A stretch of 28,843 nt of DNA from a virus, in IMG/VR virus record IMGVR_UViG_3300042691_004361, positions 1 through 28,843 of that record; one strand, given 5' to 3'. Shown piece after piece: positions 2,648 to 17,206 of the stretch. A program made the position numbers and the translations under genes. Positions within the stretch are counted from its first letter, which is position 1. Each line of letters opens with the position of its first letter. The notes below the pieces were generated by a model. The model worked only from the letters and a program-made list of their open reading frames with translations, was not told the origin of the DNA and searched no databases.

Positions 2648-4510
2648 CTATGCGTAGTTGTAATCTTGAACATTAACCACAATTTGTCGTGACTGGTCGT
2701 ACCTTGTGTGGAACATGCTCATGCTGTTATGGGTTCTTACAAAAGACCTTGCTTGGTTCATGCGGTCACGGCATCCAAGTTCTGCAAACCAGAACGCCAT
2801 TACGGTGTCTGTCTTTTGCGACTTAGGTGCATCGGGATACCAAGTAACCAGTTGCTCTATCAGGGCTTTGAGTCCCTCAGAGGCGTGAGTAGATGGGAAT
2901 TCAATGAGGGCTTTATCCTCATCCCATCCATAGAAAAGTGTCGTCAGGGATGCAACACCGAAGTTCGTGTCCCATTTATTCTGACCCGTATGATGTTCGC
3001 GCAAGATTGCACCCCGTGACGACAGGTATTCCCTTACTTCACGGTCTTGAGTCAACATAGTTTGGAAAGCGTTTTTCTCAACTCGCCACTCTGAGATTCC
3101 GTATCGGTCTGTCCAACCCTTGATGAGTTCTCGGATTTCATCTGGCTTCATGCCAGCCTTGTTTGATACATCTAAAAGATAGCGTTTTTGTGTAGAAACA
3201 TCTAACGCAAGACATACGGCTGCTGTATAACCAGAGCCTGCGGGGTCTAAGCCTGCAACGACAATCAAACCATCCATGCCGTTGTAGCGAACGCCGTTCT
3301 TGCCTCGTGGTATTACGCCGATGTTGCGTGCGCCATTGATGACACCTTTAACCGCATCGGTAGGAAATGCTGCATCCTCGTGGACTTGTTGCTGTTGATA
3401 GACCATAGCCCAGAGATTTGGTGAGATGCGCGAGCGCTTCTTATGAAGTGCGGGGCCATCCCACTTGCTGTACAACCCGTTCTCGTCAGATACGCCCATA
3501 CCAGATACTGGTGCCATATTGGTCTTAGGCCATAGCGTTACCCAGTTCTCTGGTTCCTCGTCAAACTCAAGAACCGCAGGTTGTGCAAAGTAAGTCCAAG
3601 GGGAAGTCTCGTCTGGATAGCGCATTGGGTCGCGCAATTCTGAATACAGGTCTTTTGGCCGAAGGCGGGTGCCAATTACAAGGAGGCGACCCCCATCGTT
3701 GTCAATACGAGACATGACTTCCGATTGAATCCAGTCAATCTGTTTTTCGTACTCGTGGGCGTTGGTATGGTCAACGCAGTCATCCATGATGATTAAGTCA
3801 GCACGAGCGCCGTAAATGTGACCCCGTACACCGATAGCCTGCACGGTAGGGTCTTTTTCTCCAGAATCGCGGGATTCGGAGGATAGGTAAATTAAGTCCT
3901 GCTTCCATGAATCAGACCCTTTTTGGAATCCCCCTGGCGGGCCAAAGGCGAGTTGCAAATCCTGATACTTAGGGTGTGTGAGTCTGTTCTTAATGGAGAG
4001 CAGGAACTTTTGCGCCATAGCCTGGGTCTTAGAGACCACCATGATACGGATATTAGGGTTCTGGCAAATCCGATAGACAGCGTAGTTGACCGTAATGGTC
4101 GTTGACTTCGCATGTTCTGGAGGGGTGTTGACGATGAGTAGGTCTGGGCTACCCTTTTCGTGTGTAATGGCAGGGTGGACATCAGATGGCTCCCTACCCT
4201 CCAGTAGGTCAATCCAATGCTCTTGGTGTTTAAACACCCTAGTGCCTAAAAATTTTTCTGAGAATTCGGGGAAGGGTGGTACTTCCCCACGCTCTTGCCC
4301 TATTTCACCACGAACCATCATGGAACGGACTTTATCCACCTGAGTAGCAAAGCCCTCATCTACCTTTCGGTAGTATTCGTAGGTTTTGACACTTCTGCCA
4401 ACGGCATCCATCGCCCGTTGGACAGAGTACCCCTCCATAAGGAATTCGATAATCTGCTTCTTAATGGCATCGCTTTTGTGAGATGCAGAAGTAACTCTTT
4501 TTCTTTCCAT
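2648..4510 (-). CDS. terL: Terminase large subunit with N-terminal HTH-like region
   Basis: A 620-residue packaging motor that translocates DNA into the prohead by ATP hydrolysis and cuts it. The Walker A-like loop is TPPEHAKST at residues 129-137, a known variant lacking the canonical GKS. Walker B is DLIIMDD near residues 239-244. The RNase H-like nuclease starts at GLDPAGSG, with Asp422 as the likely first metal ligand, and TDTVMAFWFAE lies near the C-terminus. Residues 17-50 (EGYSVQRAMDAVGRSVKTYEYY) resemble a helix-turn-helix as found in small terminase subunits; no separate small subunit gene is seen. The ATG at 4510 is served by AGGAG, part of which is held in a hairpin (see 4519-4559). 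Confidence 0.95.
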   Translation of the reverse strand: MERKRVTSASHKSDAIKKQIIEFLMEGYSVQRAMDAVGRSVKTYEYYRKVDEGFATQVDKVRSMMVRGEIGQERGEVPPFPEFSEKFLGTRVFKHQEHWIDLLEGREPSDVHPAITHEKGSPDLLIVNTPPEHAKSTTITVNYAVYRICQNPNIRIMVVSKTQAMAQKFLLSIKNRLTHPKYQDLQLAFGPPGGFQKGSDSWKQDLIYLSSESRDSGEKDPTVQAIGVRGHIYGARADLIIMDDCVDHTNAHEYEKQIDWIQSEVMSRIDNDGGRLLVIGTRLRPKDLYSELRDPMRYPDETSPWTYFAQPAVLEFDEEPENWVTLWPKTNMAPVSGMGVSDENGLYSKWDGPALHKKRSRISPNLWAMVYQQQQVHEDAAFPTDAVKGVINGARNIGVIPRGKNGVRYNGMDGLIVVAGLDPAGSGYTAAVCLALDVSTQKRYLLDVSNKAGMKPDEIRELIKGWTDRYGISEWRVEKNAFQTMLTQDREVREYLSSRGAILREHHTGQNKWDTNFGVASLTTLFYGWDEDKALIEFPSTHASEGLKALIEQLVTWYPDAPKSQKTDTVMAFWFAELGCRDRMNQARSFVRTHNSMSMFHTRYDQSRQIVVNVQDYNYA

Positions 4511-4856: not shown

Positions 4857-4896
4857 ATTTGCTGGCTTGTTTAAACGCATAAGCACCCAGTTGCAA

Positions 4897-5042
4897 GGCT
4901 ATGCATGCAAGCGCTAGGGGCAGGGCAGGCTTAGCGGGCGCGGTGGCGCTTACTCTCGTATCAATAGCGCCGAGACACATGCATAGCCCGCGCCCCCCGC
5001 ATCGCATGCATCGCAGGCTCACTCGCTGTCTCACTATGTGAG
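4897..5042. repeat. GC-rich inverted-repeat island in the divergent region
   Basis: An 11-bp perfect inverted repeat, GGCTATGCATG (4897-4907) and CATGCATAGCC (4978-4988), encloses a GC-rich segment. That segment carries a second inverted repeat, GGCGCT (4945-4950) and AGCGCC (4966-4971). ATGCAT occurs three times within about 110 bases, the last in a GCATCGCATGCATCGCA direct repeat. A 5-bp hairpin CTCAC-TAT-GTGAG closes the island at 5030-5042. Its composition is clearly more GC-rich than its surroundings. Plausible roles are replication origin, packaging site or structured RNA. Confidence 0.5.
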
Positions 5043-5064
5043 AAAACCCGATGGCATGTAGATA

Positions 5065-5183
5065 GTTGAACTTTCAACAATCGCTAAAGTCAGTTGTTTA
5101 ATATCACTTCAGAGCATGCGATTTATTTTTATGGGCTAAAGTCATTGATTTACACTGGTTTTAGAGATAGTTGAATTTTCAAC
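5065..5183. promoter_or_regulatory. Paired palindromes and direct repeats (operator or origin iterons)
   Basis: Two 14-bp palindromes, GTTGAACTTTCAAC (5065-5078) and GTTGAATTTTCAAC (5170-5183), share the upstream flank GATA and start exactly 105 bases apart, close to ten helical turns. Between them, GCTAAAGTCA occurs twice in direct orientation (5083-5092 and 5135-5144), each followed by a TTG..TTTA segment and 52 bases apart, close to five turns. An AT-rich tract lies between the repeats. The helical phasing favours cooperative protein binding by a repressor, activator or initiator. The binding protein is unknown. Confidence 0.5.
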
Positions 5184-5303
5184 TACTCAAACCCTTGCTC
5201 TCGGCATCTGGCGCACCTACCGCGACACGCCCGAAAACGCCAATTCCCCGAAAAAAGTTTTATGCGTAGCGACCTGCACTTTTGTATTTTTTGCCCTCAA
5301 ATG

Positions 5304-5333
5304 TTGACTTCGTTTAAACCTTGCCACTACCTT
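5304..5333 (+). promoter_or_regulatory. Candidate promoter for the first rightward operon, with GTTTAAAC in the spacer
   Basis: TTGACT (5304-5309) and TACCTT (5328-5333) are 18 bases apart, 42 bases before the first start codon of the operon. The -35 is good and the -10 is weak. GTTTAAAC occupies 5312-5319 in the spacer, where a bound protein would compete with or help RNA polymerase. Confidence 0.4.
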
Positions 5334-5374
5334 GGTGCCAGTGGGACAGACCCCCCACAGACTGGAGCAAGACC

Positions 5375-5920
5375 ATGAACCGCGAACAGTGGCTCAACCA
5401 ACTGGCAACCGTTGCCATCCCTGCAATATCTCGCTCAACCTCGTACCCTGCCGAGGAACTCTCGGTGAAACTCTCATGTGGTTTCCCATCTCAAAAGGGC
5501 AAGCGCAAGCCAGTTTCGGCTCAACTCATCCCGCCAACAGCAAGCGAGGATTTCAACGCCGAGATTTTCGTAACCCCCGAACTCGCCGAAAAGCGCAAGG
5601 TTGCTAAGGCTGTTCTGCCCCTACTCGTTGCTGTTGTGACTGGCGATTTCAAACAGCGCCAGAACTACCGCCAAGCCATCCAAGCGCTCGGTTTAAACGC
5701 CGAGGAATTGCCAACATGGGCAAAATCCATCGTTGACGATTTGCCCGCCTATCCTCATGCCGAGGTTCGCCTTGAGAACATCAAGAAGCAAACCACCCGC
5801 CTCATCAAGGTTGAGTGTGTCCGCGATGCGTACATTGCCCGCGTTTCCCGCACAACCCTTTATGTGCATGGCGCACCAATCTGCCCTGCCTGCAACCAAT
5901 CCCTAACCGAGACCAACTAA
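5375..5920 (+). CDS. SprT-like family protein lacking the HExxH zinc site
   Basis: A 181-residue protein whose layout matches the SprT-like proteins of actinophages: MNREQWL at the start, LSCGFP (33-38), a P-T-A-S-E-D..EIFVTPEL segment (54-70), YPHAEV (126-131), KKQTTRLIKVEC (137-148) and a C-terminal CPAC (170-173). In the family as I know it, the segment after the EIF block carries a zinc-binding HE..H motif. Here the equivalent stretch is LLVAVVTGD (83-91), with no His. The first zinc-ribbon pair is also incomplete, with Cys148 present but the partner replaced. It is probably a non-catalytic relative with a DNA- or protein-binding role. The start at 5375 follows the CAGACTGGAG leader. The family call rests on remembered motifs. 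Confidence 0.6.
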   Translation: MNREQWLNQLATVAIPAISRSTSYPAEELSVKLSCGFPSQKGKRKPVSAQLIPPTASEDFNAEIFVTPELAEKRKVAKAVLPLLVAVVTGDFKQRQNYRQAIQALGLNAEELPTWAKSIVDDLPAYPHAEVRLENIKKQTTRLIKVECVRDAYIARVSRTTLYVHGAPICPACNQSLTETN

Positions 5921-5946
5921 CCGTTTAAACGACTGGAGAAAAAATC

Positions 5947-6666
5947 ATGGAAACTTTCGGAATCGAACTAGAGGTTTCAGACCTCGGAATATCAACCGCA
6001 CAAACTCTCATCAACCGCGCAGGCTTGAACTGGGCTGTGAAATTTGACGGCACCCGCCATGTGTCCGCCGAGGCTGTCTCGCCAATCTTGACCGCAGACC
6101 GTTTAAACGAGGGCAAGACCGTTGCCCGCGCCCTGCTATCTGGCGGTGCAACCGTCAACAAACAAACGGGCTACCATGTCCACCTCGGTGCCGATGAGTA
6201 CGGAATTGAGGGCATCGCCAAACTCGTGTGGAACTGGAATTTCATCCACGCAACTATCGGCTCACTCGTTGCACCATCCCGTTTAAACAACGGTTTCTGC
6301 AAGGCTGTTGATACGAGCCGACTAGACCAGTGGGTTGAGCATGTCCGCAACGGCAACATCTCAAACGCCGAGGGAGGGCGCTACTACAGCCTCAACCTCG
6401 CCTCATACTCTCGCCACCGCACCGTAGAGTTTCGCCTACATCATGGCACCCTCAACGGCTCCAAGATTAAGGCGTGGGCGGAATTCTGCTCGGCTGTTGC
6501 CCGCTATTCTGTGGACAACGAGCCAATCACAGATGCGAAATTCCAATCTGTGCCAGACCGTTTAAACAACATCAAAGAGTTCTTAGAACTCATCACCTTG
6601 ACTGGTCATCTTGACCAAACCACAGCCGACTACCTCAAGGGTCGAGCCGAGGAACTAGCCCGCTAG
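5947..6666 (+). CDS. Amidoligase-type ligase (COOH-NH2 ligase family)
   Basis: A 239-residue protein resembling the Amidoligase_2 family, glutamine-synthetase-like enzymes predicted to join a carboxylate to an amine using ATP. Visible landmarks are FGIELE at residues 4-9 (acidic metal-binding start), GYHVHLGA at 75-82, RYYSLNL at 145-151 and TVEFRLHHGTL at 159-169. The family is often paired with class II glutamine amidotransferases, and one lies downstream at 7515-8318. The substrate is unknown; peptide, cell-wall or small-molecule modification are all possible. All three R-L-N tripeptides (52-54, 112-114 and near 204) are encoded so as to create GTTTAAAC, so the DNA motif rather than the protein seems to dictate the codons. 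Confidence 0.75.
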   Translation: METFGIELEVSDLGISTAQTLINRAGLNWAVKFDGTRHVSAEAVSPILTADRLNEGKTVARALLSGGATVNKQTGYHVHLGADEYGIEGIAKLVWNWNFIHATIGSLVAPSRLNNGFCKAVDTSRLDQWVEHVRNGNISNAEGGRYYSLNLASYSRHRTVEFRLHHGTLNGSKIKAWAEFCSAVARYSVDNEPITDAKFQSVPDRLNNIKEFLELITLTGHLDQTTADYLKGRAEELAR

Positions 6667-6672
6667 CGGGCA

Positions 6673-6745
6673 GGGTTGCGGGTAGCCAAGCCCGCACTAG
6701 GTGCAAGCCCTAGCAACCCACGAACAGATGGCGGAAAGACCGTCA
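6673..6745 (+). ncRNA. Candidate structured RNA: three-way junction plus hairpin
   Basis: Between the amidoligase gene and a 58-residue gene, three 5-bp stems form a compact three-way junction: GGGTT (6673-6677) with AACCC (6715-6719), GCGGG (6678-6682) with CCCGC (6691-6695), and CTAGG (6697-6701) with CCTAG (6709-6713). The joining segments are zero or one base long. A 6-bp hairpin TGGCGG/CCGTCA with one G-U pair (6729-6745) follows. GTTTAAAC then lies three bases away, before the ribosome binding site. This could be a riboswitch-like or processing element controlling the next gene. I could not match it to a named RNA family. Confidence 0.45.
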
Positions 6746-6770
6746 CTGTTTAAACAGACTGGAGAAAAAA

Positions 6771-6947
6771 ATGGCAACACCTACAGGCATCGCCTTGAAA
6801 GTAACAGGCAAGGATGGGCATGTGTCCTACCCTGCTTATGAAGCGTTCGGTTGGGACAAAATCAACGCGGTAATCCAAGGCACATTGGACATCGAACATG
6901 TAGCCAAGGTTGAAATCGTGGACATCAACATCAAGGCTGGTGTTTAA
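6771..6947 (+). CDS. Small protein of unknown function (58 aa)
   Basis: A 58-residue protein beginning MATPTGIALKVTG. It starts six to seven bases after the AGACTGGAG leader, preceded by the candidate structured RNA, so its translation is well supported. It is slightly acidic, with no Cys, membrane segment or recognised motif. The alternating hydrophobic pattern (VAKVEIVDINIKAGV) suggests beta-strands. Its last codon and stop are formed by GTTTAAAC, and the next gene starts three bases after the stop. Confidence 0.7.
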   Translation: MATPTGIALKVTGKDGHVSYPAYEAFGWDKINAVIQGTLDIEHVAKVEIVDINIKAGV

Positions 6948-6949
6948 AC

Positions 6950-7165
6950 ATGAGCCAGAGAAAACTAACTTCCGATGAGTTCGCGTTGCTCCGCAAACTA
7001 GAAACAGCCGAGCAATTACTCAACGAAATCAACGAATCACACTTCGACCTATTGCATGGCACTGTTGGATACGACAGAGCCGTACAAGTACCAGTGTCTT
7101 ACACCAAAATTGCATCGGTGCGAATCGAATTGCAACGACAGTTCCAAGAAAGCGAGGCTGTTTAA
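6950..7165 (+). CDS. Small helical protein of unknown function (71 aa)
   Basis: A 71-residue protein, mostly charged and probably helical (LLRKLETAEQLLNEI), with no Cys and no membrane segment. Its ATG directly follows GTTTAAAC, which also supplies the previous gene's stop. Its own last codon and TAA stop come from the next GTTTAAAC. No strong ribosome binding site is visible, so translational coupling to the upstream gene is likely. Function unknown. Confidence 0.65.
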   Translation: MSQRKLTSDEFALLRKLETAEQLLNEINESHFDLLHGTVGYDRAVQVPVSYTKIASVRIELQRQFQESEAV

Positions 7166-7167
7166 AC

Positions 7168-7266
7168 ATGGAACCAATCAACTATCTACAGATTATTGAT
7201 GGGCGCGTGTTGCTCATGGCTATCATCGTCACCCTTGCATGGAAGTGGAGTCGGAGTCATGAGTAG
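7168..7266 (+). CDS. Very small single-span membrane protein (32 aa)
   Basis: A 32-residue product starting MEPINYLQ directly after GTTTAAAC, with one hydrophobic stretch, VLLMAIIVTLAW, followed by KWSRSHE. The positive residues after the span suggest the N-terminus faces out. The stop overlaps the start of the next gene by eight bases, which supports translation as part of the operon. Function unknown; small inner-membrane phage proteins often inhibit host functions or exclude superinfecting phage, but nothing here shows that. Confidence 0.5.
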   Translation: MEPINYLQIIDGRVLLMAIIVTLAWKWSRSHE

Positions 7267-7468
7267 CGCACTAGAGCGCAGGCTTGAGCGCATCCTATGG
7301 GAGGCAAACTATGACGACCTCGGAAACTGCAAGCATTGCGGGTCATGGTTCTACTCGGCATGCAAACCAAACTGCAAGGCCGTAGAGCCTGACTGTTTAA
7401 ACAGTAAGCCAGCACCTGTAATCTGTGGCGATTGCCTTCGCCCAGATTGCAAGGGCTGTACAAATTAA
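7259..7468 (+). CDS. Cys-rich zinc-binding small protein
   Basis: A 69-residue protein starting MSSALERRLERIL. It has nine Cys, including a CKHC pair, single Cys in SAC, NC and DC, then CGDC and a final PDCKGC. The spacing suggests two zinc sites. The start at 7259 overlaps the end of the 32-residue membrane protein by eight bases, the coupling seen elsewhere in this operon; an ATG further upstream (7196) would overlap that gene much more. The N-terminal 20 residues are an amphipathic helix. A nucleic-acid- or protein-binding adaptor is plausible but unproven. Confidence 0.65.
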   Translation: MSSALERRLERILWEANYDDLGNCKHCGSWFYSACKPNCKAVEPDCLNSKPAPVICGDCLRPDCKGCTN

Positions 7469-7470
7469 TG

Positions 7471-7479
7471 TGATACAAT
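7471..7479 (+). promoter_or_regulatory. Candidate extended -10 promoter before the amidotransferase gene
   Basis: TGATACAAT at 7471-7479 fits an extended -10 (TG-N-TACAAT). No good -35 is present at the usual distance. It would give a short leader containing the AGACTGGAG repeat. Confidence 0.35.
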
Positions 7480-7514
7480 TAACTATCAACAACTAACAGA
7501 CTGGAGAAATACAT

Positions 7515-8318
7515 ATGTGTGGAATCGCAGGCTTCTGCCTTAACCCCAAAGAACACAAGCGCGTAAGCGTTGGAGACCTCGCAGGACAGATGCTCCTAGA
7601 CATCGAGCATCGCGGGCAACATGCAACGGGTAGCGCGTGGATTGATGCATCAACTGGCGTACGCACCATCAAGAAAGCACCGATGCCAGCGAGCGCCTTC
7701 GTGCGCCGAGCCAAAGACCTATGCAACAACGCACAGACTGCTATCTTGCACACAAGATGGGCAACTCAAGGCTCACCCAAAGACAACAACAACAACCATC
7801 CCATCCCGCGTGGCAAGATTGTCTTGACTCACAACGGACACATCGCAAACGATGATGCCCTGTTTAAACAACTCAAGGTCAAGCGACACGGACAAGTGGA
7901 TTCCGAGGCGGTGACTGCACTGCTCGCCTTCTCTAACTCACATCCAACCGAGGTGCTAACCGAGGTCAAAGGTACTGCTGCATTGGCATGGCTTGAACAA
8001 GACAAGCCAAACATCCTGCACCTTGCCCGCGTTAACTCATCCCCGCTGTGGATTGGCATGACCTACACTGGTTCGCTCGTCTATGGTTCAACCGAGGACA
8101 CCATCGAGAACGCATCCATCATCATCGGCTGTGACCTTGATTGGAAATACTCTGCCAGCGAGGGTGAATACTTCAAGGTTCAAGACGGCAAGATTGTAGA
8201 GCATCAGTCGTTTAAACCACACCGCGCCGAGCCTCGTTATCATTGGCGTTCGATGGCAAGCCTGCGCGATGAGGAACTAGACAGATGGTGGGCAGACCAA
8301 GACGAACTCGCCTTCTAA
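7515..8318 (+). CDS. Class II glutamine amidotransferase (Ntn-type)
   Basis: A 267-residue protein starting MCGIAGFC, where Cys2 becomes the N-terminal nucleophile after Met removal. It has the family landmarks HRGQHATGS (32-40), HTRWATQG (79-86), and THNGHI (105-110) for glutamine binding and the oxyanion hole. It consists of little more than the glutaminase domain, without the synthase domain of PurF, GlmS or AsnB, so it must pass ammonia to a partner. The obvious partner is the amidoligase at 5947-6666 in the same operon. It is preceded by the AGACTGGAG leader and followed by a strong terminator. Two internal GTTTAAAC copies encode Phe-Lys. Confidence 0.9.
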   Translation: MCGIAGFCLNPKEHKRVSVGDLAGQMLLDIEHRGQHATGSAWIDASTGVRTIKKAPMPASAFVRRAKDLCNNAQTAILHTRWATQGSPKDNNNNHPIPRGKIVLTHNGHIANDDALFKQLKVKRHGQVDSEAVTALLAFSNSHPTEVLTEVKGTAALAWLEQDKPNILHLARVNSSPLWIGMTYTGSLVYGSTEDTIENASIIIGCDLDWKYSASEGEYFKVQDGKIVEHQSFKPHRAEPRYHWRSMASLRDEELDRWWADQDELAF

Positions 8319-8332
8319 TCTCAACAAGAATT

Positions 8333-8358
8333 GCCCCCGCTTCGGCGGGGGTTTTTCT
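8333..8358 (+). terminator. Strong intrinsic terminator ending the first rightward operon
   Basis: CCCCCGC (8334-8340), a TTCG tetraloop and GCGGGGG (8345-8351) are followed by TTTTTC. It starts 15 bases after the amidotransferase stop. Confidence 0.95.
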
Positions 8359-8447
8359 TTTGCCTGGAAAGAAGAACCTGCACTACTGTTTAAACAATCA
8401 TTAGCAATCTACCTGGCTGCCTGCTAATACAAACTGTTTAAACAGAC

Positions 8448-8475
8448 TTGCACAACTTGACTAACCTGTTATACT
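8448..8475 (+). promoter_or_regulatory. Promoter for the second rightward operon
   Basis: TTGCAC (8448-8453) and TATACT (8470-8475) are 16 bases apart, with an extended TG-T before the -10. GTTTAAAC at 8436-8443, inside the 12-bp palindrome CTGTTTAAACAG, ends four bases before the -35. Another copy lies upstream at 8388 and one downstream at 8521. Confidence 0.65.
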
Positions 8476-8499
8476 TTTCGCATCTAAAGATGCGAAAAG
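8474..8499. promoter_or_regulatory. 12-bp inverted repeat at the transcription start
   Basis: CTTTTCGCATCT (8474-8485) and AGATGCGAAAAG (8488-8499) are perfect complements separated by two bases. The repeat begins inside the -10 and spans the expected start site. No T-run follows on either strand, so an operator, or a 5' mRNA stabilising hairpin, fits better than a terminator. Confidence 0.6.
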
Positions 8500-8631
8500 C
8501 GAACGCCACGCATGGTAAATGTTTAAACAAAATAATTTATTTTAAATCTTTAAATATATTCTTGACTTATTGCAATCCAATCTGGTTCACTTATCTCTGT
8601 AGCAACTGGGCTACCAAGTGAAAGGCTGGAC
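8500..8631. other. Leader with AT-rich tract, possible unwinding element
   Basis: About 130 bases without a gene. Positions 8518-8562 are almost entirely A and T and start with GTTTAAAC (8521-8528). The rest is ordinary sequence ending in GAAAGG, the ribosome binding site of the next gene. An AT-rich stretch beside repeats could be a replication unwinding element, but no initiator gene is adjacent. Confidence 0.35.
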
Positions 8632-8808
8632 ATGTATCTATCTAACTATGACCTCATCGCAATCACTGTATTGCTGGTGCTGTTGAACACCGCACTCATC
8701 TATGCAGTGGTGCAGAACAAGAATCTCCTACGCGAAAACAATTTCCTTCGCGCCACTAACCGCGAACTCCGCAACCGCTACCGCCACTATGTAGAAAAGC
8801 CCTTCTAA
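8632..8808 (+). CDS. Small membrane-anchored protein (58 aa)
   Basis: A 58-residue protein, MYLSNYDLIAITVLLVLLN at the start, with one membrane span (about residues 8-27) and a basic helical tail (RENNFLRATNRELRNRYR) likely to be cytoplasmic and possibly coiled. GAAAGG lies six bases before the ATG. The stop overlaps the next start as TAATG. It is the first gene after the 8448-8475 promoter. Function unknown. Confidence 0.65.
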   Translation: MYLSNYDLIAITVLLVLLNTALIYAVVQNKNLLRENNFLRATNRELRNRYRHYVEKPF

Positions 8809-8936
8809 TGAGCGAGCAAACTTACTGTGTTAGGTGCTTTGAGAACTACGATGACGATGGCTTTGACTACCGCTTTGATGAGCCAACATGCAACAAGTGC
8901 GTTGAGTTATACAAACTAGAACCGAAGGGTGTTTAA
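8808..8936 (+). CDS. Small zinc-ribbon-like protein (42 aa)
   Basis: A 42-residue acidic protein with two Cys pairs, CVRC (residues 7-10) and CNKC (28-31), the spacing of a zinc knuckle. The start overlaps the previous stop. The final Gly-Val and TAA stop are formed by GTTTAAAC, followed immediately by the next ATG. Function unknown. Confidence 0.6.
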   Translation: MSEQTYCVRCFENYDDDGFDYRFDEPTCNKCVELYKLEPKGV

Positions 8937-8938
8937 AC

Positions 8939-9187
8939 ATGGCTGATAAATATAACGGCTGGAAAAACTACGACACATGGAACTGTGCGCTGTACATCAA
9001 CAACGATTATGCACTCTACAAATCTGCAACCATCTTTATGAAAGCGTACAAGGGAGCCAAGCCCTATCGTGACTGGGTTGCACGGGCTGGACTAGAGAAG
9101 CAAACAACACCCGATGGATGCAAATGGATTAGCGACAAACTATCCTACGCAGAACTCAACGAGATGATGAAAGCGTTGAACTCCTGA
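8939..9187 (+). CDS. Small conserved phage protein with NGWKNYDTWN motif
   Basis: An 82-residue protein with the motif NGWKNYDTWNCALYINND at residues 6-23. I recognise this as a recurrent motif in small hypothetical phage proteins of no known function. The N-terminal part is rich in aromatic residues and the C-terminus is helical. Its ATG follows GTTTAAAC directly and its stop overlaps the next start as TGATG, so it is probably translated by coupling. Confidence 0.75.
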   Translation: MADKYNGWKNYDTWNCALYINNDYALYKSATIFMKAYKGAKPYRDWVARAGLEKQTTPDGCKWISDKLSYAELNEMMKALNS

Positions 9188-9363
9188 TGGCTATAGTGTG
9201 GAAGGCAGAAGTCACATCCGAAATGCTGGAACATCTAAGCGATGAACAACGCAGGCAACTGCTCAACGAACTAACAAATACAGTGGACACGATTGGTCAA
9301 AAGGCTGGCGTGGGTAGAGAGTACGAGAACGGGAGACTAAAAGATTATGCATCCAGAAGTTAA
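9187..9363 (+). CDS. Small helical protein of unknown function (58 aa)
   Basis: A 58-residue charged protein with a predicted helix around EMLEHLSDEQRRQLLNEL. It starts in the TGATG overlap with the previous gene and overlaps the next gene by 17 bases. No domain recognised; the overlaps on both sides support it as a genuine gene in a tightly packed operon. Confidence 0.55.
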   Translation: MAIVWKAEVTSEMLEHLSDEQRRQLLNELTNTVDTIGQKAGVGREYENGRLKDYASRS

Positions 9364-9709
9364 AGGCGTGGTCATCTATCCAGATGCAACGCACGAAGTG
9401 AAAGTGTTTAAACAACTAAAGGATTACCAAGAAGCAGTTGGTGGTTACATTGAAAGCGTACGGTTCTATGATTACAACGCCGATGAGGTAGCCCAAGCCT
9501 ATGTAAATGAGGAAGGCTGGCTAAATGCAGAGCCATCAATCAACCCGCTTGCTGGTGCATTGTCTTTCCTCTTTGGAAACAACGCAGTGCTGGCTGGCAA
9601 CATGATTATCATGGGCAAGGGAGACGGCAACGGATACGATACCGACATCCCTGACTGGTTACTCACACTCATCAAACAAATCTCAGCAGAGCGAGGGCAT
9701 AATGTTTAA
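9347..9709 (+). CDS. DUF3846-like protein
   Basis: A 120-residue protein matching the pattern of DUF3846: a strand-rich start (VVIYPDATHEVK), LKDYQEAVGGYIESV (24-38), then AYVNEEGWLNAEPSINPLAG (51-70) and a C-terminal part with GNMIIMGKGDGNG. DUF3846 proteins are common in phages and mobile elements of Gram-positive bacteria, and their function is unknown. The last codon and stop are in GTTTAAAC at 9704-9711, and the next gene starts two bases upstream of that motif in another frame. Confidence 0.7.
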   Translation: MHPEVKGVVIYPDATHEVKVFKQLKDYQEAVGGYIESVRFYDYNADEVAQAYVNEEGWLNAEPSINPLAGALSFLFGNNAVLAGNMIIMGKGDGNGYDTDIPDWLLTLIKQISAERGHNV

Positions 9710-10139
9710 ACGCATCGTCTCTATTCTTCTGCTGGTAACAGCGACAGTCGCCATTGATAATCGGTTCTTTGAAAAGGGACACATCCCAGTAGCAAACACA
9801 CCTAGCAAGGGCGTGGCTGGTGAGGTAGTAGCCTTCTATGAAAACGAATACCAACGCTATGCCATTGACCTACTAGCAGAGCGTGGCAAACTAGAGGAGT
9901 GGTCATGTCTGTATTACTTATGGGTACGCGAATCAAACTGGAGACCGAAGGCACTTAACCGTAGCAGTGGTGCATACGGAATCGCACAGTTCATGCCATA
10001 CACATGGAAGCAAGTAGGGTACAAGCGCACTGACGATGGCTTCACACAAGTGGAAGCAGGGCTTGCATACATTGACCGCAAGTACGGTGGCAATATCTGC
10101 AAGGCACTCGGTTCAAACTTATCAAGGGGATGGTACTAA
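9702..10139 (+). CDS. Secreted lytic transglycosylase-like protein
   Basis: A 145-residue protein with a signal-peptide-like N-terminus (MFKRIVSILLLVTATVA) and a lysozyme-fold domain: ESNW (77-80, Glu77 the likely catalytic acid), SSGAYGIAQFMPYTW (88-102) and EAGLAYIDRKYG (118-129). Cys69 and Cys133 could form a disulfide outside the cell. Such enzymes cleave the glycan strands of peptidoglycan. It lies in the early-type rightward operon with WhiB, far from the lysis genes at 17207-18116, so it may act in cell-wall remodelling rather than lysis. It overlaps the end of the DUF3846 gene by eight bases. Confidence 0.8.
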   Translation: MFKRIVSILLLVTATVAIDNRFFEKGHIPVANTPSKGVAGEVVAFYENEYQRYAIDLLAERGKLEEWSCLYYLWVRESNWRPKALNRSSGAYGIAQFMPYTWKQVGYKRTDDGFTQVEAGLAYIDRKYGGNICKALGSNLSRGWY

Positions 10140-10501
10140 TGAAGCACAAGCCAGAGCATCACAAGATTGTGGATGAGAAGCCAGCACCAAGTGGTGAGAC
10201 TTACTATCTACTGGAGTACAGTCAACAAGGATACGCTGGTGCATCCTGTAAGGGAGTGCCAACTGAAATGTTTTTCCCAGACATTGAGAACTTTAAGGAG
10301 GAGGACACCGTGTTGTTTAAACGCGTATGCGGTGGCTGCCCAGTCAAACAACGGTGCTTGGAGTGGGCGCTAGTCCATGAAAGGTACGGAGTGTGGGGTG
10401 GCATGACCCCGCGTGAGCGTATCGTTGAGCGTAGGCGCAGGGGTTGGGCTTTGCTTGAGCCACACCTCTATGTCCCGCTAGGTCAGCGATACATGGTATA
10501 G
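10139..10501 (+). CDS. whiB: WhiB-family iron-sulfur transcription regulator
   Basis: A 120-residue protein with the four cluster Cys of WhiB proteins (Cys37, Cys64, Cys67, Cys73), the CPVKQRCLEWAL block and the GVWGG turn (84-88), followed by a basic tail TPRERIVERRRR. WhiB proteins carry a [4Fe-4S] cluster and bind the host's main sigma factor to redirect transcription. Phage WhiB proteins are known to repress host whiB genes in mycobacteria. The start at 10139 overlaps the previous stop and has AAGGGG nine bases upstream. This gene is the main evidence for an actinobacterial host and is the last of its operon. Confidence 0.95.
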   Translation: MKHKPEHHKIVDEKPAPSGETYYLLEYSQQGYAGASCKGVPTEMFFPDIENFKEEDTVLFKRVCGGCPVKQRCLEWALVHERYGVWGGMTPRERIVERRRRGWALLEPHLYVPLGQRYMV

Positions 10502-10510
10502 TTTCCCCAA

Positions 10511-10555
10511 GAAGCACCCGCCAAGGTTCCAGTCCCGAAGCGGGTGCTTCGCTTT
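10511..10555. terminator. Terminator between convergent operons
   Basis: GAAGCACCCGC (10511-10521) pairs with GCGGGTGCTTC (10540-10550), an 11-bp stem with an 18-base loop, followed by GCTTTTA. It separates the rightward whiB operon from the leftward replication operon and may act in both directions. Confidence 0.8.
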
Positions 10556-11100
10556 TATGGAAGTTTAAATGCGCTCCGCATTAACATGAATACATTGTCG
10601 GATAAATCATCCAAAGTACCATCATTAATAATCACATGATTAAACATGTATCTATCCATCGCATGCTCAGATGCATGGCCGTTGACTGCAGTGTGGTTTA
10701 AACGGTTGACTCTAATCATAAAACCTGAACGCGATTTGATTGCTTCTGCTTCGTTAGGAAAACGCGTATCGGTGACAACCCAATTCTGTTCTGGGTTAGA
10801 ATCAATCTGTCGCATAACAATATCAATCCATACATCATCGCCTAGTAACTGGCGACCTACCTCAGTACCCATAACTTGTAACAGTCGGCGTACCTCAGGG
10901 TTATTCTTTGCAGTATCCCAACCATAATCCTCAGCCATCTCGCCCGCACGAATACCGTTACCAAGCATAGGGTTTAAACGCATGATGGACTCACGGATAG
11001 CATCAGCAAATGCTACGCGTTTGAAGTTGTAGTTTAAACACAGCAACTCTGCAACTGTATCTTTACCTGACTGTGCGTATCCACTTAGTCCAATAATCAT
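10555..11100 (-). CDS. Deoxynucleoside monophosphate kinase
   Basis: A 181-residue P-loop kinase that phosphorylates dNMPs to dNDPs for phage DNA synthesis. It has GYAQSGKD (7-14) as the ATP loop, FADAIRE (31-37), and VVTDTRFPNEA (108-118), typical of phage T4 gene 1-type dNMP kinases and their actinophage relatives. It is the last gene of the leftward replication operon, overlaps the sigma-like gene by four bases and ends just inside the shared terminator region. Confidence 0.85.
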   Translation of the reverse strand: MIIGLSGYAQSGKDTVAELLCLNYNFKRVAFADAIRESIMRLNPMLGNGIRAGEMAEDYGWDTAKNNPEVRRLLQVMGTEVGRQLLGDDVWIDIVMRQIDSNPEQNWVVTDTRFPNEAEAIKSRSGFMIRVNRLNHTAVNGHASEHAMDRYMFNHVIINDGTLDDLSDNVFMLMRSAFKLP

Positions 11101-11744
11101 TGGTCAACACCTTCATCTCTCCTTGGTTTGCGGTACCAGATAGGTGGTTCTCCACCCAGTCTGTCTTGTAGTTTGGTGAGCGCTCGCTTAACTCTCTTGC
11201 GTATTGCTTCCTCTGTTGTTTCATATGTCTGTGCAAGTGGTGCAAGTTCCATACCACCATCGGCATACCTCAGCCGCAACAACCCCTGGTCTGCTTTGTT
11301 TAAACGCTGTAGCCCTGCCGCCACATCCGACAACAGTGCCATACGATTGCCACCTTCACTTGGTTTAGCAGAGCGAGATACAAATTCATCCGACATGTTC
11401 TGCTTATCTGCCCACCCTACATGTGTCCATACATCGGGCAGTAGTTCATGCAGTACCTCATGCGTGTAGTAAAAACTATCGGACATAGGCGAGCGCGAAT
11501 AGCGAGCGCGTTCCTTGGCTGCATACTTCTGTGCTTCATTGTAGAAAGTCTTGCGTAACTTGTAGCGCAGACTATCTTCCTCTTGCCACTGCTCTATCTT
11601 ATGCCAGTGTTCGAGCGCCCACAACGACATGTGTTGGTACAAATCATCAGTGCTTACTAGGTTGCGATGCATACGATTGCTACGGCTAGATACTTGGCGA
11701 GCAACCGTGTAAATTATTTCCCATACCTCGTCTTGATTATCCAT
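11097..11744 (-). CDS. Sigma-70-like factor
   Basis: A 215-residue protein whose C-terminal part fits sigma region 4: LQRLNKADQGLLRLRYADG (145-163), then a helix-turn-helix in LAPLAQTYETTEEAIRKRVKRALTKLQ. Residues 25-80 (DDLYQHMSLWALEHW, then a basic helix with KLRKTFYNEAQKYAAKERAR) could correspond to region 2, though the match is weak. Such phage proteins may direct host RNA polymerase to phage promoters or act as DNA-binding regulators. It overlaps the next upstream gene by eight bases. Confidence 0.65.
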   Translation of the reverse strand: MDNQDEVWEIIYTVARQVSSRSNRMHRNLVSTDDLYQHMSLWALEHWHKIEQWQEEDSLRYKLRKTFYNEAQKYAAKERARYSRSPMSDSFYYTHEVLHELLPDVWTHVGWADKQNMSDEFVSRSAKPSEGGNRMALLSDVAAGLQRLNKADQGLLRLRYADGGMELAPLAQTYETTEEAIRKRVKRALTKLQDRLGGEPPIWYRKPRRDEGVDQ

Positions 11745-12144
11745 CTTTAGGTTCTGCCTTCTCGTTCTTTAACTTACGCATTGCCATGAGCAAATCATCT
11801 ACAGTTATTAGATAACCCTTGCTCTTGTTCGGGGGAATCTCACATGTAATCTCTCGCCCAAACTCTTTGATTGCGTAGTGAACATGGGTAGTAGGTACCA
11901 TCAGCACGCCCTGCTCTAGGACAAATGCCCAATAGTCTGCTTCCGTTACCATCACACCCGATGGTTCCCATGACTGACTCTTTTGGTACCAGCACTCCAC
12001 TTCTACATAGAGATTGTTAGTAACCCACCACTTGCGGTCACGCTTGACTTCAACTTTCTTTCCCTGTGTTAATAGTTCCTCAACTAACTGCTCGCCTTTT
12101 CTACCGTATCCAAAGTCTAAATCAAACGATGAGTTCTTTGCCAT
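11737..12144 (-). CDS. PD-(D/E)XK-like nuclease
   Basis: A 135-residue protein with features of a small restriction-fold nuclease: RKGEQLVEELL (15-25, Glu18), VEVKRD (31-36, the E-x-K pair) and NLYVEVECW (44-52), then SGVMVTEADYWAFVL (62-76), a pattern seen in hypothetical phage nucleases. It sits in the replication operon just after the primase genes. The start follows GTTTAAAC (12146-12153), which also carries the primase stop. Alternative: a non-catalytic relative with a structural role in recombination. Confidence 0.6.
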   Translation of the reverse strand: MAKNSSFDLDFGYGRKGEQLVEELLTQGKKVEVKRDRKWWVTNNLYVEVECWYQKSQSWEPSGVMVTEADYWAFVLEQGVLMVPTTHVHYAIKEFGREITCEIPPNKSKGYLITVDDLLMAMRKLKNEKAEPKDG

Positions 12145-12147
12145 TGT

Positions 12148-12768
12148 TTAAACACCAACGCGTTTGCGTAAGCCCTCTGCCCCTTCTGATAGGTACACAT
12201 CATTAACATCACAGTTATCTGGCATGAACACAGGGAACACATTGTCTAGTTCTCTGCTTATATTCTTAGCCATCTCTCGCCCTGCATTATCACCATCACA
12301 GAACAACATAATCTTTTCCCAGTCCGCAAGGACACGGGAGTAAAATGGTTTCCAGTTGTTAGCCCCTGGCAAACCGACTGCAGCAAAGCCCACTTGTGTA
12401 GCGATGATGGTATCAATCTCACCCTCGCAGATAACAAGGAAGTCTGAATCTGAATTCAGTGCATCCACATTAAAGATGTGTGTGCTTGCCCCTGGCCTAG
12501 ACATATACTTCGGGCCACCATCATTGTTTAAACTGCGGAAGCGGATGTCAATGACACCTGCTGGTGTGAGGTAAGGGATTGCTAACTTACCAATGTAAGG
12601 TTCATGCCCTGCCTCAGGATTCGCCACGAAGCCGAGGCGGAACATACGCGCCGTCTCCTCCGTGATACCGCGATTCGCTAGATACGGAAGCACCTCGCTT
12701 AGGTTTCCTTCGTAGTTCTCCGTTGCTTTCGCCAGTAATTCTCTCTGCGATTTTGACAGCCTCGCCAT
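12148..12768 (-). CDS. Primase TOPRIM subunit (DnaG-like, split gene)
   Basis: A 206-residue protein with the DnaG-type catalytic core. YLANRGITEETARMFRLGFV (29-48) is the start of the RNA polymerase domain, VICEGEID (112-119) has the TOPRIM glutamate, and LFCDGDNAG (155-163) has the metal-binding DxD. It lacks the zinc-binding domain, which is encoded by the upstream gene in another frame; the two overlap by 155 bases. AAGGAG precedes its ATG by six bases, so it is translated from its own start. It makes RNA primers with the DnaB-like protein at 14597-15376. The final Val and stop lie in GTTTAAAC. Confidence 0.9.
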   Translation of the reverse strand: MARLSKSQRELLAKATENYEGNLSEVLPYLANRGITEETARMFRLGFVANPEAGHEPYIGKLAIPYLTPAGVIDIRFRSLNNDGGPKYMSRPGASTHIFNVDALNSDSDFLVICEGEIDTIIATQVGFAAVGLPGANNWKPFYSRVLADWEKIMLFCDGDNAGREMAKNISRELDNVFPVFMPDNCDVNDVYLSEGAEGLRKRVGV

Positions 12769-12988
12769 ACTTGACTCCTTCTTTCTTCATAATCAGTGAA
12801 TACACATCTCCAGCCATATCACATGCAAAGCAGCGGAAGCCACCATTGTCTATGTTTAAACGGGCTGACTTAACTTTATCATTATGGAAGGCACAACGCA
12901 CAGTAATCCAGCCATGCCTAATTGGGATATTAAATCCGTAGTGTTCGAGGACTTTAACGATGTCATGCTTAGAGGTTTGGTCTGACAT
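12614..12988 (-). CDS. Primase zinc-binding subunit (CHC2-type)
   Basis: A 124-residue protein with the DnaG zinc-binding domain: RCAFHND (Cys32, His35), then FRCFACDMAGDVYSLIM (Cys53, Cys56). Its C-terminal 50 residues are basic and low-complexity (RRKPKRGASVSSESRYHGG, then YVPPRLR), a tail I associate with actinophage primase zinc subunits. That part overlaps the TOPRIM gene by 155 bases in a different frame. It would recognise template start sites together with the TOPRIM subunit. AAAGG lies before the ATG, and the gene overlaps the upstream nuclease gene by 20 bases. Confidence 0.88.
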   Translation of the reverse strand: MSDQTSKHDIVKVLEHYGFNIPIRHGWITVRCAFHNDKVKSARLNIDNGGFRCFACDMAGDVYSLIMKKEGVKYGEAVKIAERITGESNGELRRKPKRGASVSSESRYHGGDGAYVPPRLRGES

Positions 12989-13337
12989 CGCTCAACCTTT
13001 GAACTACATACGCTTCGCCGACACCCTTGTTAGGTGCCTTGATAATTACCAGTGGCGTAGGTGCGACTGCTAATTTCTTGGCAGTCTTGTAGTTGTTAGA
13101 TTCAACAAATGCTTCTTTCATCCAGCCACTCAAATCAATACGACCATCCCTGCGTGGAGCCTTGGCTTCCACAATATAGATGCCGTTGACACCGTGAATA
13201 ACTACATCACCAATGTCATTGCGCCCTGCTCTTGGCAAGCGCTGTGCGTTTAAACCATCATCAACAAGCCAGTCGGCTAAGTCAATTTCCCAACTCGCAC
13301 CTCTACGCTTGTTCGCTATTTGCGGACTGTTGCTCAC
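12969..13337 (-). CDS. Holliday-junction-resolvase-like nuclease
   Basis: A 122-residue protein of the PD-(D/E)XK fold. It has KRRGASWEIDLADWL (10-24, Glu17), GRNDIGDVVI (38-47, Asp44) and YIVEAKA (54-60, Glu57-x-Lys59), the arrangement of archaeal Hjc-type and phage junction resolvases. It would cut branched DNA arising in replication, recombination or packaging. GTG at 13337 is chosen because AAAGGAG lies just upstream; the ATG at 13355 has no such site. It overlaps the glycosyltransferase gene by 35 bases. Confidence 0.8.
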   Translation of the reverse strand: MSNSPQIANKRRGASWEIDLADWLVDDGLNAQRLPRAGRNDIGDVVIHGVNGIYIVEAKAPRRDGRIDLSGWMKEAFVESNNYKTAKKLAVAPTPLVIIKAPNKGVGEAYVVQRLSDVRPNL

Positions 13338-14037
13338 GCTCTCTCCTTTCTGCAATCTCTACGGCTGACCAGTACAAGTTGTAGTACGCATCATCAAGTG
13401 AAAAGCGTTTCATATGTCTGACCAGTGCTGATGTATTTGCATGGACTGGCACACCCGCTGCTCTTACCTTGCGGAAGAAAGCGATGTCCTCTCCAATGAA
13501 CTTCTCGCCCGACTCGTTGTTCTCTGCGAACCAGAACTCATCGCCGAACTTATCCTTAAGCGCCTTGATAACTGACTTGTGCATCATCACTAAGCCAAAG
13601 CCTGCGTTGTCAATGCGTACCACTTGATTGCGTGGCAGTGGGTGAAGGTGCTGTTGCTCGTACTCTGTAGCACCATCGTTAAACAACACTGGCATCGGCA
13701 TCATCAGCGAGCCTTCGTTCTGCTTACTGATGAAGTACACGCCAGATACAATCGGGCGAGCGTGCTTGTCAGCGGTATCCCATAGGGTCTTGAGTACCTC
13801 TTTGGTAAGCACGATGTCTGAGTCAACCCATAGCGCCCAGTCTGTGCCTACCTTTTCCCACATCTCAAAGGCAGCCTGTCGCTGGCGTGCTATCTGATTA
13901 CCCTGTACACGGATAGCGTTGTGTATCTTGACCTCACTTGTGATGAGTGTGTAAACAACACCTTCGGCGAACTTGCCATCAACCATACCGCCGTCACACC
14001 AGACAACAGATAGTGTTTCTTTATTACTGTGGGCCAT
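13303..14037 (-). CDS. GT-A-type glycosyltransferase
   Basis: A 244-residue protein resembling nucleotide-sugar-dependent glycosyltransferases. ALWVDSDIVL (68-77) contains the DxD metal site (Asp72, Asp74). VSGVYFISK and IDNAGFGLVMMH fit the core strands, and GEDIAFFRKV (182-191) carries the likely acidic base. It lies inside the replication operon, between an unknown gene and the resolvase-like gene. That position makes a role on DNA or on a host target more likely than on the virion, but sugar donor and acceptor are unknown. It overlaps the preceding gene by 14 bases. Confidence 0.78.
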   Translation of the reverse strand: MAHSNKETLSVVWCDGGMVDGKFAEGVVYTLITSEVKIHNAIRVQGNQIARQRQAAFEMWEKVGTDWALWVDSDIVLTKEVLKTLWDTADKHARPIVSGVYFISKQNEGSLMMPMPVLFNDGATEYEQQHLHPLPRNQVVRIDNAGFGLVMMHKSVIKALKDKFGDEFWFAENNESGEKFIGEDIAFFRKVRAAGVPVHANTSALVRHMKRFSLDDAYYNLYWSAVEIAERREREQQSANSEQA

Positions 14038-14440
14038 CAGTGAATACCTTTTCTGTTCTGTCTAGTATTTGCATTGATTGTTCAGCAACTTCTTTCCAAG
14101 TTTCGCTAATTAATTTGAGTTGTCCTGCGACTTCGGAGGCGCAGTCCGCCCCATGTTCTGCGAGATGGTCAGCCATTTGGCTAACATAATCAGCAAACTG
14201 TAGGGACTCCAACCAAATTGCGGAAGGGTCGTAGATTTTTCTTGTCGCTTCATCAATATGTTCCACAAATGCAGGGAGTTCACTGAGGATTGACTCCTTC
14301 ATTTCCTGTGGAATCGGTGCTTCCTTCACTGCTTTCTCCAGCATCTCTGGAGTAACGGAGAGTTCCTTCATCAAGTAGTTGTTTAAACTCTGCTTCCGTG
14401 AGGTCTTTGAACTGCCCCGTTTCTTTGTTCTGCCAAACAT
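14024..14440 (-). CDS. Unknown acidic helical protein
   Basis: A 138-residue protein with a basic first 23 residues (MFGRTKKRGSSKTSRK) and an acidic helical remainder (ELSVTPEMLEKAVKEAP, ESILSELPAFVEHIDEAT). No domain recognised. The ATG at 14440 has GGAG five bases upstream, but it overlaps the preceding gene by 161 bases in another frame. A later start at residue 24 would shorten the overlap but has no ribosome binding site. Function unknown. Confidence 0.6.
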   Translation of the reverse strand: MFGRTKKRGSSKTSRKQSLNNYLMKELSVTPEMLEKAVKEAPIPQEMKESILSELPAFVEHIDEATRKIYDPSAIWLESLQFADYVSQMADHLAEHGADCASEVAGQLKLISETWKEVAEQSMQILDRTEKVFTDGPQ

Positions 14441-14600
14441 ATGTTCTCCATCCTACTGTCCATGAAAAGTTCTTTGGGTAAAACATCAGTTGTGCTTTCA
14501 TGTCTGTTATCAGAGTTTTTGTTGGCACAATTACTTCTTCCGCAGATACTGAACCCTTAAGTTCCCCTGCGTTTTCAGCGATAATTAGTTCCCATGTCAT
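14280..14600 (-). CDS. Unknown protein (106 aa) coupled to the helicase gene
   Basis: A 106-residue protein beginning MTWELIIAENAGELKG. Its ATG overlaps the helicase stop as ATGA, supporting this start. The middle (MFYPKNFSWTVGWRTYVW) is aromatic-rich; the last 27 residues are Ser/Gly/Asp-rich and probably disordered. It overlaps the next gene by 161 bases. The shared GTTTAAAC at 14381 reads Phe-Lys in this frame and Leu-Asn in the other. No function can be given. Confidence 0.6.
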   Translation of the reverse strand: MTWELIIAENAGELKGSVSAEEVIVPTKTLITDMKAQLMFYPKNFSWTVGWRTYVWQNKETGQFKDLTEAEFKQLLDEGTLRYSRDAGESSEGSTDSTGNEGVNPQ

Positions 14601-15376
14601 TGTTGTAATAAGTCCAAAATCTGCATTGCTGCTGGTTCGTAGGACAACCACACGGGTGAAGCACCCATTGCATCGGCTGGCCCATAACGATTCTTTACAG
14701 CACACACGCCCATTGATGCGAGTTGACCATGTACTGTGAGGATTAATGAAGGAGTCTGGGCCACCTTGCCATGCAGCGATGAACGCGGAGGACAAGGGTT
14801 TCCAGATACACCTTCACTTGTGTGATGGCATACCACTACAGCAGCGCCAGTTTCTCTAGCCCACCACTTGAGTTCACGCATGAGTGTGCGTAGTCCGCCC
14901 CACTCATCTTGCCCATCAAGGGTTACATCTACTGCGTTATCTAGAACGATGAGTTCAACATCTTTACCTAGTCGCTCACGGCTTGCAAGGATTGCATCCT
15001 CTACATCCTTAAGCGTAGGTGCTGAGTCAAACTCCCAGAGGATATGGTCGGCAGACTTGAGCATCTGCCCTGCCCACTCTCTGTCCATCTCCATCAGTGG
15101 TTCGACTTCGTTCTGTGGTTTACCTGTAATCATTGCCAGCAAACGCAAACTCATTGTGTGTGAGTGTGTATCTGCTGAGATGTATAGCGTTGGGACAGCA
15201 GCATGCACTGCAAGTGACAACGCAAGAGTTGATTTTCCAGCCCCTGGTGGCCCCGCAATCATGCTGACTTCGCCCCGTCTAAACGCTATCTGCTGTGCAG
15301 CAAGGGATTGCCACACCGTTGGAAGCGTGGCACCCCCTTGCGATGCAGTCTTAATAGCACGGGATAGAAGGCGCAT
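14597..15376 (-). CDS. DnaB/RecA-type ATPase, likely replicative helicase
   Basis: A 259-residue RecA-fold ATPase. It has GPPGAGKS (42-49) as Walker A, ELIVLDNAVDV (141-151) as Walker B, and a sensor-like segment ending VVVCHHTSEG. It has the C-terminal ATPase domain of DnaB-type helicases without the N-terminal primase-binding domain, as in several phage helicases. Neighbouring split-primase genes support a replication role. RadA-like recombination ATPase is the alternative. There is no strong ribosome binding site, and the gene starts three bases after the preceding stop. Confidence 0.82.
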   Translation of the reverse strand: MRLLSRAIKTASQGGATLPTVWQSLAAQQIAFRRGEVSMIAGPPGAGKSTLALSLAVHAAVPTLYISADTHSHTMSLRLLAMITGKPQNEVEPLMEMDREWAGQMLKSADHILWEFDSAPTLKDVEDAILASRERLGKDVELIVLDNAVDVTLDGQDEWGGLRTLMRELKWWARETGAAVVVCHHTSEGVSGNPCPPRSSLHGKVAQTPSLILTVHGQLASMGVCAVKNRYGPADAMGASPVWLSYEPAAMQILDLLQQ

Positions 15377-15379
15377 GTG

Positions 15380-16631: not shown

Positions 16632-16643
16632 GTTACTTCCTTT

Positions 16644-16679
16644 CAATAGAGGAGTTTACGCGCAATGTCTCATCTATTG
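16644..16679. promoter_or_regulatory. Inverted repeat in the divergent gap before the replication operon
   Basis: CAATAGA-G-GAG (16644-16654) and CTC-A-TCTATTG (16669-16679) form a near-perfect inverted repeat around a 14-base centre, lying between divergent genes. It may be an operator or part of the leader of the leftward nuclease gene. Confidence 0.4.
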
Positions 16680-16698
16680 AGTAAGACACGCCGATAAT

Positions 16699-17113: not shown

Positions 17114-17149
17114 ATTTTCTTGGCTGATGGGGAAGCGGTCAGGAAAAGC

Positions 17150-17196: not shown

Positions 17197-17206
17197 GTTT
17201 AAACGG

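Follow-up and report, generated by a model that had tools for sequence, protein, structure and literature searches.

A palindromic octamer dispersed in a viral genome as a candidate stoperator-like site of a SprT-derived zinc-ribbon protein

The window, by which is meant the whole 28,843-nucleotide stretch analyzed here (positions 1 to 28,843 of the IMG/VR virus record IMGVR_UViG_3300042691_004361), carries 37 exact copies of the palindromic word GTTTAAAC and, at 5375-5920 on the plus strand, the gene of a 181-residue SprT-like protein, which covaries with the word among related phages and is the proposed site-binding protein. A rightward early block spans 5.3-10.5 kb, and the remainder of the window is largely leftward. 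Pfam matches were obtained for an amidoligase, a GATase, an SLT domain, WhiB, a dNMP kinase, sigma region 4, the primase domains CHC2 and Toprim, a DnaB-like ATPase and a Cas4/PDDEXK nuclease; neither Rfam families nor tRNAs turned up when the window was scanned for them. The WhiB gene and the similarity of the terminase to those of Streptomyces phages point to an actinobacterial host.

Dinucleotide shuffling predicts 0.51 copies of GTTTAAAC in the window (maximum 2 in 100 shuffles), Markov models of orders 1-3 predict 0.5-1.1. The word is the commonest 8-mer, the second-ranking palindromic 8-mer being present in 6 copies. One-mismatch versions number 11, about the chance level for 24 words, and the word is therefore without a halo of decayed copies. 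The 4869-14388 segment holds 29 of the 37 sites, where a uniform spread predicts 12.2 (p = 2e-8); the stretch 14389-17196 is free of sites, and five are located from 18120 onward. The preliminary description, made from the sequence alone, had reported 37 copies against about half a copy expected, their uneven spread, the rarity of near-matches, and the use of CGT TTA AAC for each of the amidoligase's three R-L-N tripeptides; each of these is reproduced here, and the excess stands under the Markov models as well. Fourteen of the 37 sites are not fully coding, in a window which is 90.6% coding (p = 3e-6). Flanking bases hold little information apart from a T-N8-A preference, and no clear pattern of helical phasing was seen among the sites. 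A compositional or codon-usage accident, which the R-L-N codons taken alone might suggest, was rejected on the shuffles (37 vs. 0.5), and its probability is practically nil, there being no excess of near-misses, and orthologous positions being kept in relatives.

The sites, all exact matches without assigned strand, fall within genes, at gene edges and between genes. Those lying between genes include one in a divergent intergenic region (4869-4876) and others at 8388-8395, 8436-8443, 8521-8528, 17197-17204 and 20121-20128. One site lies upstream of the amidoligase gene (5923-5930), two adjoin the ATG codons at 6950 and 8939 (6942-6949 and 8931-8938), one makes the stop codon of a gene ending at 7165 (7160-7167), one extends across a start and a stop codon (9704-9711), and two sit at gene junctions (12146-12153 and 18120-18127). 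Sites are further found in the portal-region gene (1067-1074), the terminase gene (4228-4235), the WhiB gene (10315-10322) and, twice, the dNMP kinase gene (10696-10703 and 10972-10979), as well as at 6748-6755, 7395-7402, 8210-8217, 9406-9413, 12854-12861, 14381-14388, 19742-19749 and 24322-24329. The remaining sites are dealt with below, together with their counterparts in relatives or with the promoter of the SprT-like gene.

Relatives with terminases 84-91% identical fall into three word types. Type I, to which most belong, carries tens of GTTTAAAC copies, type II (few genomes) carries GTCTAAAC or GTTTAGAC, and type III TGTCTTAA. The early arc is site-rich in all three types, with about 2-3 sites per kb vs. 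0.04-0.6 elsewhere. For twenty window sites the surrounding gene has orthologs in ten or more genomes, and a codon-level comparison showed some of these sites to be retained by every type I genome (10/10). This is the case for the sites in the GATase gene (7862-7869, GTTTAGAC in type II) and in the sigma-r4 gene (11298-11305); those in the Toprim/primase gene (12526-12533) and at 26905-26912 are kept in 9/9, and the site at 13248-13255 in 9/10. Three sites correspond to the amidoligase R-L-N tripeptides: 6101-6108 is kept in 7/10 type I genomes and replaced by GTTTAGAC in type II, 6281-6288 is kept in 8/10 and replaced by GTCTAAAC, and 6560-6567 also entered the comparison. GTCTAAAC is found in type II at the 5691-5698 site as well, and at a third site in the dNMP kinase gene (11032-11039), where all four type III genomes have GTCTTAA. 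Overall, ten window sites have the type II form of the word as their counterpart in the type II genome. A coordinated change at this many sites argues that they are read by a factor acting in trans.

The protein cluster including the 5321/5375-5920 product is, among 21 whole records, found in nearly all type I and type II genomes and absent from type III, and occurs also in phages showing little other similarity to the window. At the corresponding place, type III genomes encode a different SprT-like protein, whose ribbon is GRNTN. In 55/55 loci of terminase relatives reaching far enough, the type of word matches the type of SprT protein: GTTTAAAC goes with a KQxTR ribbon in 34, GTCTAAAC with KQTTR in 4, and TGTCTTAA with GRNTN in 17. 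These are not 55 independent events, since the genomes are linked by phylogeny, and one of them (L054), labelled type II by the classification rule, was counted as type III on its 29 type III words. No other protein cluster is as widely shared by motif-positive genomes, the best non-SprT cluster being found in 7/19. As a separate feature, in the type III relatives L037, L054, L059 and L080 TGTCTTAA is often joined by AGACAGGAGA, a Shine-Dalgarno-like extension, in 10-14 copies.

The preliminary description had likened the word to stoperators and had listed, without choosing, a phage repressor, a nucleoid-type protein, a methylase and a recombination or partition factor as possible readers. The stoperator-like repressor class is the best supported of these, and covariation singles out the 5375-5920 gene. 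A different reader, such as WhiB, the sigma-r4 protein of the phage or a nucleoid protein of the host, with the SprT-like gene as a linked passenger, could be proposed because the window encodes both WhiB and a sigma-r4 protein and because the AZ and EH phages described below have adjacent annotated DNA-binding proteins; yet orthologs of sigma-r4, WhiB and primase occur in relatives using another word and are missing from unrelated phages that share the window's word, which makes such a reader improbable. Still harder to sustain is a role of the word in DNA modification, restriction avoidance, recombination or partition, as a methylase target or a Chi-like or parS-like element: GTTTAAAC is a perfect palindrome, as such a role might lead one to expect, but the asymmetric GTCTAAAC and GTGTAAAC stand in for it in relatives, ParA and ParB families were undetected in the window group, and no methylase was seen in those window genes that were scanned. 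The analysis gave no support to a methylase, or to a factor of recombination or partition, as the reader.

The open reading frame of the SprT-like gene opens at 5321, and its likely start is the ATG at 5375. The protein ends in a zinc ribbon, KKQTTRLIKVEC...GAPICPACNQSL, which spans residues 134-181 approximately and bears a KQxTR signature, and matches phrog_6361 (E 6.1e-12); the PF10263 cut-off is reached by relatives, the window protein itself having no PF10263 match. In its AlphaFold (AF2) model the N-terminal part aligns with selecase (Z 8.2) and with SPRTN 6mdw (Z 7.2), both middling scores (VIA-align), and the C-terminal part matches zinc ribbons. Foldseek alone gave no significant match of the window model against PDB, a result not to be taken as a sign of a novel fold; for the intact relative L119, the top Foldseek match is SPRTN 6mdx, at a moderate E of 0.049. 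By sequence family the window protein is classed as a derivative of the SprT-like metalloproteases. It shares sequence family and, probably, fold with the SprT/SPRTN proteins (PF10263, phrog_6361, the 'SprT-like protease' of actinophages), and differs from them in missing HExxH, the catalytic motif. HExxH is kept in L119, R5C, Powerpuff and others. Further relatives (G010, G012, G021, L029 and others) are proteins of 53-100 residues, made up by the C-terminal zinc ribbon alone. In the open-licence literature searched, no description was found of a KQxTR ribbon tied to a DNA word, nor anything linking SprT-like proteins to GTTTAAAC or GTGTAAAC; searches for GTTTAAAC with phage returned no phage-motif title, and searches for GTGTAAAC no phage-motif paper, among the matches listed.

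One site lies in the promoter of the SprT-like gene itself. The 5312-5319 site, 55 bp upstream of the start and a candidate autoregulatory operator, is enclosed within the spacer of the sigma70-like promoter TTGACT-N18-TACCTT (5304-5333, plus strand), identified by consensus match only. In ECO1230-10 and Bas97, TATAAT is followed by GTTTAAAC 7 to 8 bp later, and in Powerpuff TAGACT adjoins GTTTACAC. The proteins in question are Bas97_0032 (XPK41247.1) for Bas97 and gp49 (QGZ17347.1) for Powerpuff. When the best-scoring promoter was taken for each of 37 SprT or ribbon genes with a site not more than 160 bp upstream, the site fell inside the stretch separating -35 from -10, or on +1, in 29, 14.5 being expected for random positions. 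Since the site is usually in the gene's own promoter, these data suggest that the SprT-like gene represses itself.

The word and the ribbon recur together far beyond the terminase relatives. Viral contigs were scanned, blind to genes, for three words spaced 165-195 bp, a pattern expected in about 0.2 contigs by our own estimate. Sixty contigs were found, most being fragments, and 43 encode a KQxTR-type ribbon (38 in the fetched stretch, five in the whole record). Conversely, the cultured phages retrieved by protein alone with a KQ[S/T/G]TR ribbon, which come from Escherichia, Burkholderia, Dinoroseobacter, Arthrobacter, Microbacterium and Streptomyces, all carry GTTTAAAC or GTGTAAAC. GTTTAAAC elements are abundant in R5C (17 vs. 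0.04 expected), Pan1 (16 vs. 0.02) and Mica (7 vs. 0.09), and in modest excess in Bas97 (6 vs. 0.69) and ECO1230-10 (5 vs. 0.97); Persinger has 4. GTGTAAAC elements peak in Microdon (43 vs. 0.05), and are numerous in Honk (33 vs. 0.09), Zeta1847 (22 vs. 0.08), Powerpuff, Lego and YesChef (27, 25 and 26 copies), and Maureen and Emotion (17 copies each). In most of these phages the excess is strong. Neither word is enriched in Armstrong, Dismas, Epa5 and MW2, whose SprT-like C-termini are without KQxTR. In bacterial genomes, scanned with alignment A4, the broad alignment A3 being too diverse, 30 KQ-type loci hold 71 GTTTAAAC (2.15 expected) and 51 GTGTAAAC (3.46 expected), with at least one of the two in 29/30, and 50 other SprT loci hold 14 GTTTAAAC (5.3 expected) and 11 GTGTAAAC (7.8 expected); the KQ-type class was set partly after the near variants KQSAR and RKQKTR were seen, which slightly favours this split. 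The word is not peculiar to the phage of the window; it and its one-base variants are met again in phages and prophages from several phyla of bacteria.

GTGTAAAC clusters in 38-62 kb blocks of four actinobacterial chromosomes, those of Pseudarthrobacter siccitolerans, Micromonospora veneta, M. okii and Kibdelosporangium banguiense. The two blocks inspected contain phage genes for portal, tail and replication functions; one of them ends with a serine integrase. An integrase is found near the SprT-like gene in six cultured carriers, and in 0/4 carriers without KQxTR. Phages of clusters AZ and EH, which are proven or likely temperate, are described as integrase-positive, their repressor not having been identified (PMC8758107; PMC7302621), and lysogens of Powerpuff are reported to show homoimmunity although no repressor could be identified (PMC8758107). 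AZ and EH phages carry the pair formed by the word and the KQxTR protein; neither is found in cluster EB (Dismas), described as lytic. For integrase-bearing relatives, whose immunity repressor is missing, the pair is a good candidate for that role.

Word, protein, covariation, coherent switch of words, promoter position and prophage location are all supported at the level of sequence; from them we infer physical binding, repression and a role in immunity. GTTTAAAC is probably a stoperator-like site, read by the SprT-derived zinc ribbon of the 5375-5920 protein, which would silence transcription. The C-terminal ribbon (KQ[S/T/G]TR) would read the word GTNTAAAC, the protein would shut down its own promoter via the 5312 site, and at some 30 further sites in the early and replication operons the bound protein would block or attenuate transcription, as cluster A repressors do at stoperators.

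The SprT-ribbon protein might also read the word for another purpose, the sites serving as tethers along the phage genome for a DNA-linked protease, or for a remnant of one that has lost its activity, so that host roadblocks are removed, phage DNA is protected or organized, or replication is aided. SprT/SPRTN relatives are DNA-activated proteases (PMC5128726), most families other than the window group have an intact HExxH, and the sites of R5C, Pan1 and Mica are many, intragenic and widely scattered. Against tethering stand the autoregulatory promoter placement, the concentration of sites in the early arc, and the loss of HExxH, or of the entire protease domain, while ribbon and sites stay; we regard it as rather unlikely, if the most serious competitor of transcriptional silencing.

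Several observations weigh against silencing by the SprT-derived ribbon. The sparse intragenic sites of R5C, Pan1 and Mica are a poorer fit to a simple operator. The ribbons of type I and type II phages can be nearly identical, being found with GTTTAAAC in the former and with mixed GTCTAAAC/GTTTAAAC sets in the latter, so that the KQxTR signature does not fix word position 3. Three betaproteobacterial loci (L387, L388 and L390; Burkholderiales, Limnohabitans) have 3-5 GTTTAAAC near a SprT-like gene without KQxTR. A P. siccitolerans prophage (G071:C25:130353-167587) combines a serine integrase with some 20 GTGTAAAC sites, but no SprT-like gene was found nearby; a SprT-like gene is present in another prophage contig (C28) of the same genome. 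The promoter test is supportive rather than blind, some promoter sequences having been viewed before the scoring rule was fixed, and a recognizable sigma70-like promoter is found at 1/37 window sites only, a general association of window sites with sigma70 promoters being rejected on this count. Finally, the window group yielded neither a serine nor a tyrosine integrase, and no ParA or ParB match above cut-off, and lysogeny is therefore not indicated there; for this group, regulation of transcription during lytic growth is as possible as immunity.

The comparison system is the repressor/stoperator pair of cluster A phages, exemplified by L5, Bxb1 and TipsytheTRex (PMC9283540, PMC6550527). Shared features are tens of short sites along the genome (37 here, more than about 20 being looked for), one site at the promoter of the regulator (29/37 homologs vs. 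14.5 expected; 5312 in the window), the joint divergence of word and protein among relatives, and the location of some members in prophages. In contrast, cluster A sites are asymmetric 13-mers oriented with transcription, the window word an 8-bp palindrome, and many window-type sites lie within coding sequence. The cluster A repressor combines an HTH with a second DNA-binding domain, the covarying protein, which is the presumed reader here, a SprT zincin with a zinc ribbon. Stoperator-like strand orientation in GTGTAAAC relatives was not significant after correction for TAA stops, except in Emotion. By analogy, the GTTTAAAC system would work like stoperators, but is placed outside the cluster A stoperator family.

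Cluster K mycobacteriophages also encode a SprT relative (PMC3203893). Their start-associated sequences (SAS) resemble the sites described here in being dispersed short repeats, some beside start codons, but are non-palindromic 13-mers at start codons, the window sites residing mostly elsewhere. Phage or stress repressors are tied to a zincin protease in the ImmA/ImmR, CapP/CapH and IrrE/DdrO pairs, and CapP and IrrE/PprI are among the weak structural matches of the window protein. Protease and repressor are separate proteins in such pairs, while the window-type system, as proposed, would have both in one chain. It is possible, though doubtful, that KQxTR SprT-like proteins are unrecognized, widespread phage immunity repressors, with repressor and metalloprotease in one chain acting on GTNTAAAC stoperators and perhaps inactivated by DNA-triggered self-cleavage at induction; they would include the missing AZ/EH repressor, and would have protease-dead and ribbon-only descendants, the window protein among them.

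If silencing by the SprT-derived ribbon is correct, a function would be assigned to 'SprT-like protease' genes annotated across many phages, Arthrobacter phages proven to be temperate would gain a testable candidate for the repressor they have so far lacked, a zinc ribbon would act as a sequence-specific reader in phages, and a DNA word would allow phages of the same immunity type to be predicted from raw metagenomes.

Other repeats were noticed in the phages monitored. Seven palindromic, parS-like TTTCACGTGAAA words (GTTTCACGTGAAAC) are found in Arthrobacter phage Emotion (OQ709216; W12, L314-L316), in which no ParA or ParB was detected, and which may use a host partition protein. Pan1 (L288-L291) and R5C (L296-L299) have a second dispersed repeat, ATAAGCGAGTTATA / ATAAGTCGCTTAT, in 5-8 copies, some intergenic. 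Six CTACAATAGAAGTAT-like repeats, possibly a promoter repeat, are found in Microbacterium phage Armstrong (NC_048090; L312, L313), and Pseudomonas phage Epa5 (MT108725; L292-L295) carries 57 copies of CCCTGGGC (5.6 expected), as well as AGAAAAGGAG repeats. In the window, the primase region (12148-12988, minus strand) has its CHC2 zinc finger (12614-12988) and Toprim domain (12148-12768) in overlapping frames, as in a split gene or a gene expressed by programmed frameshift.

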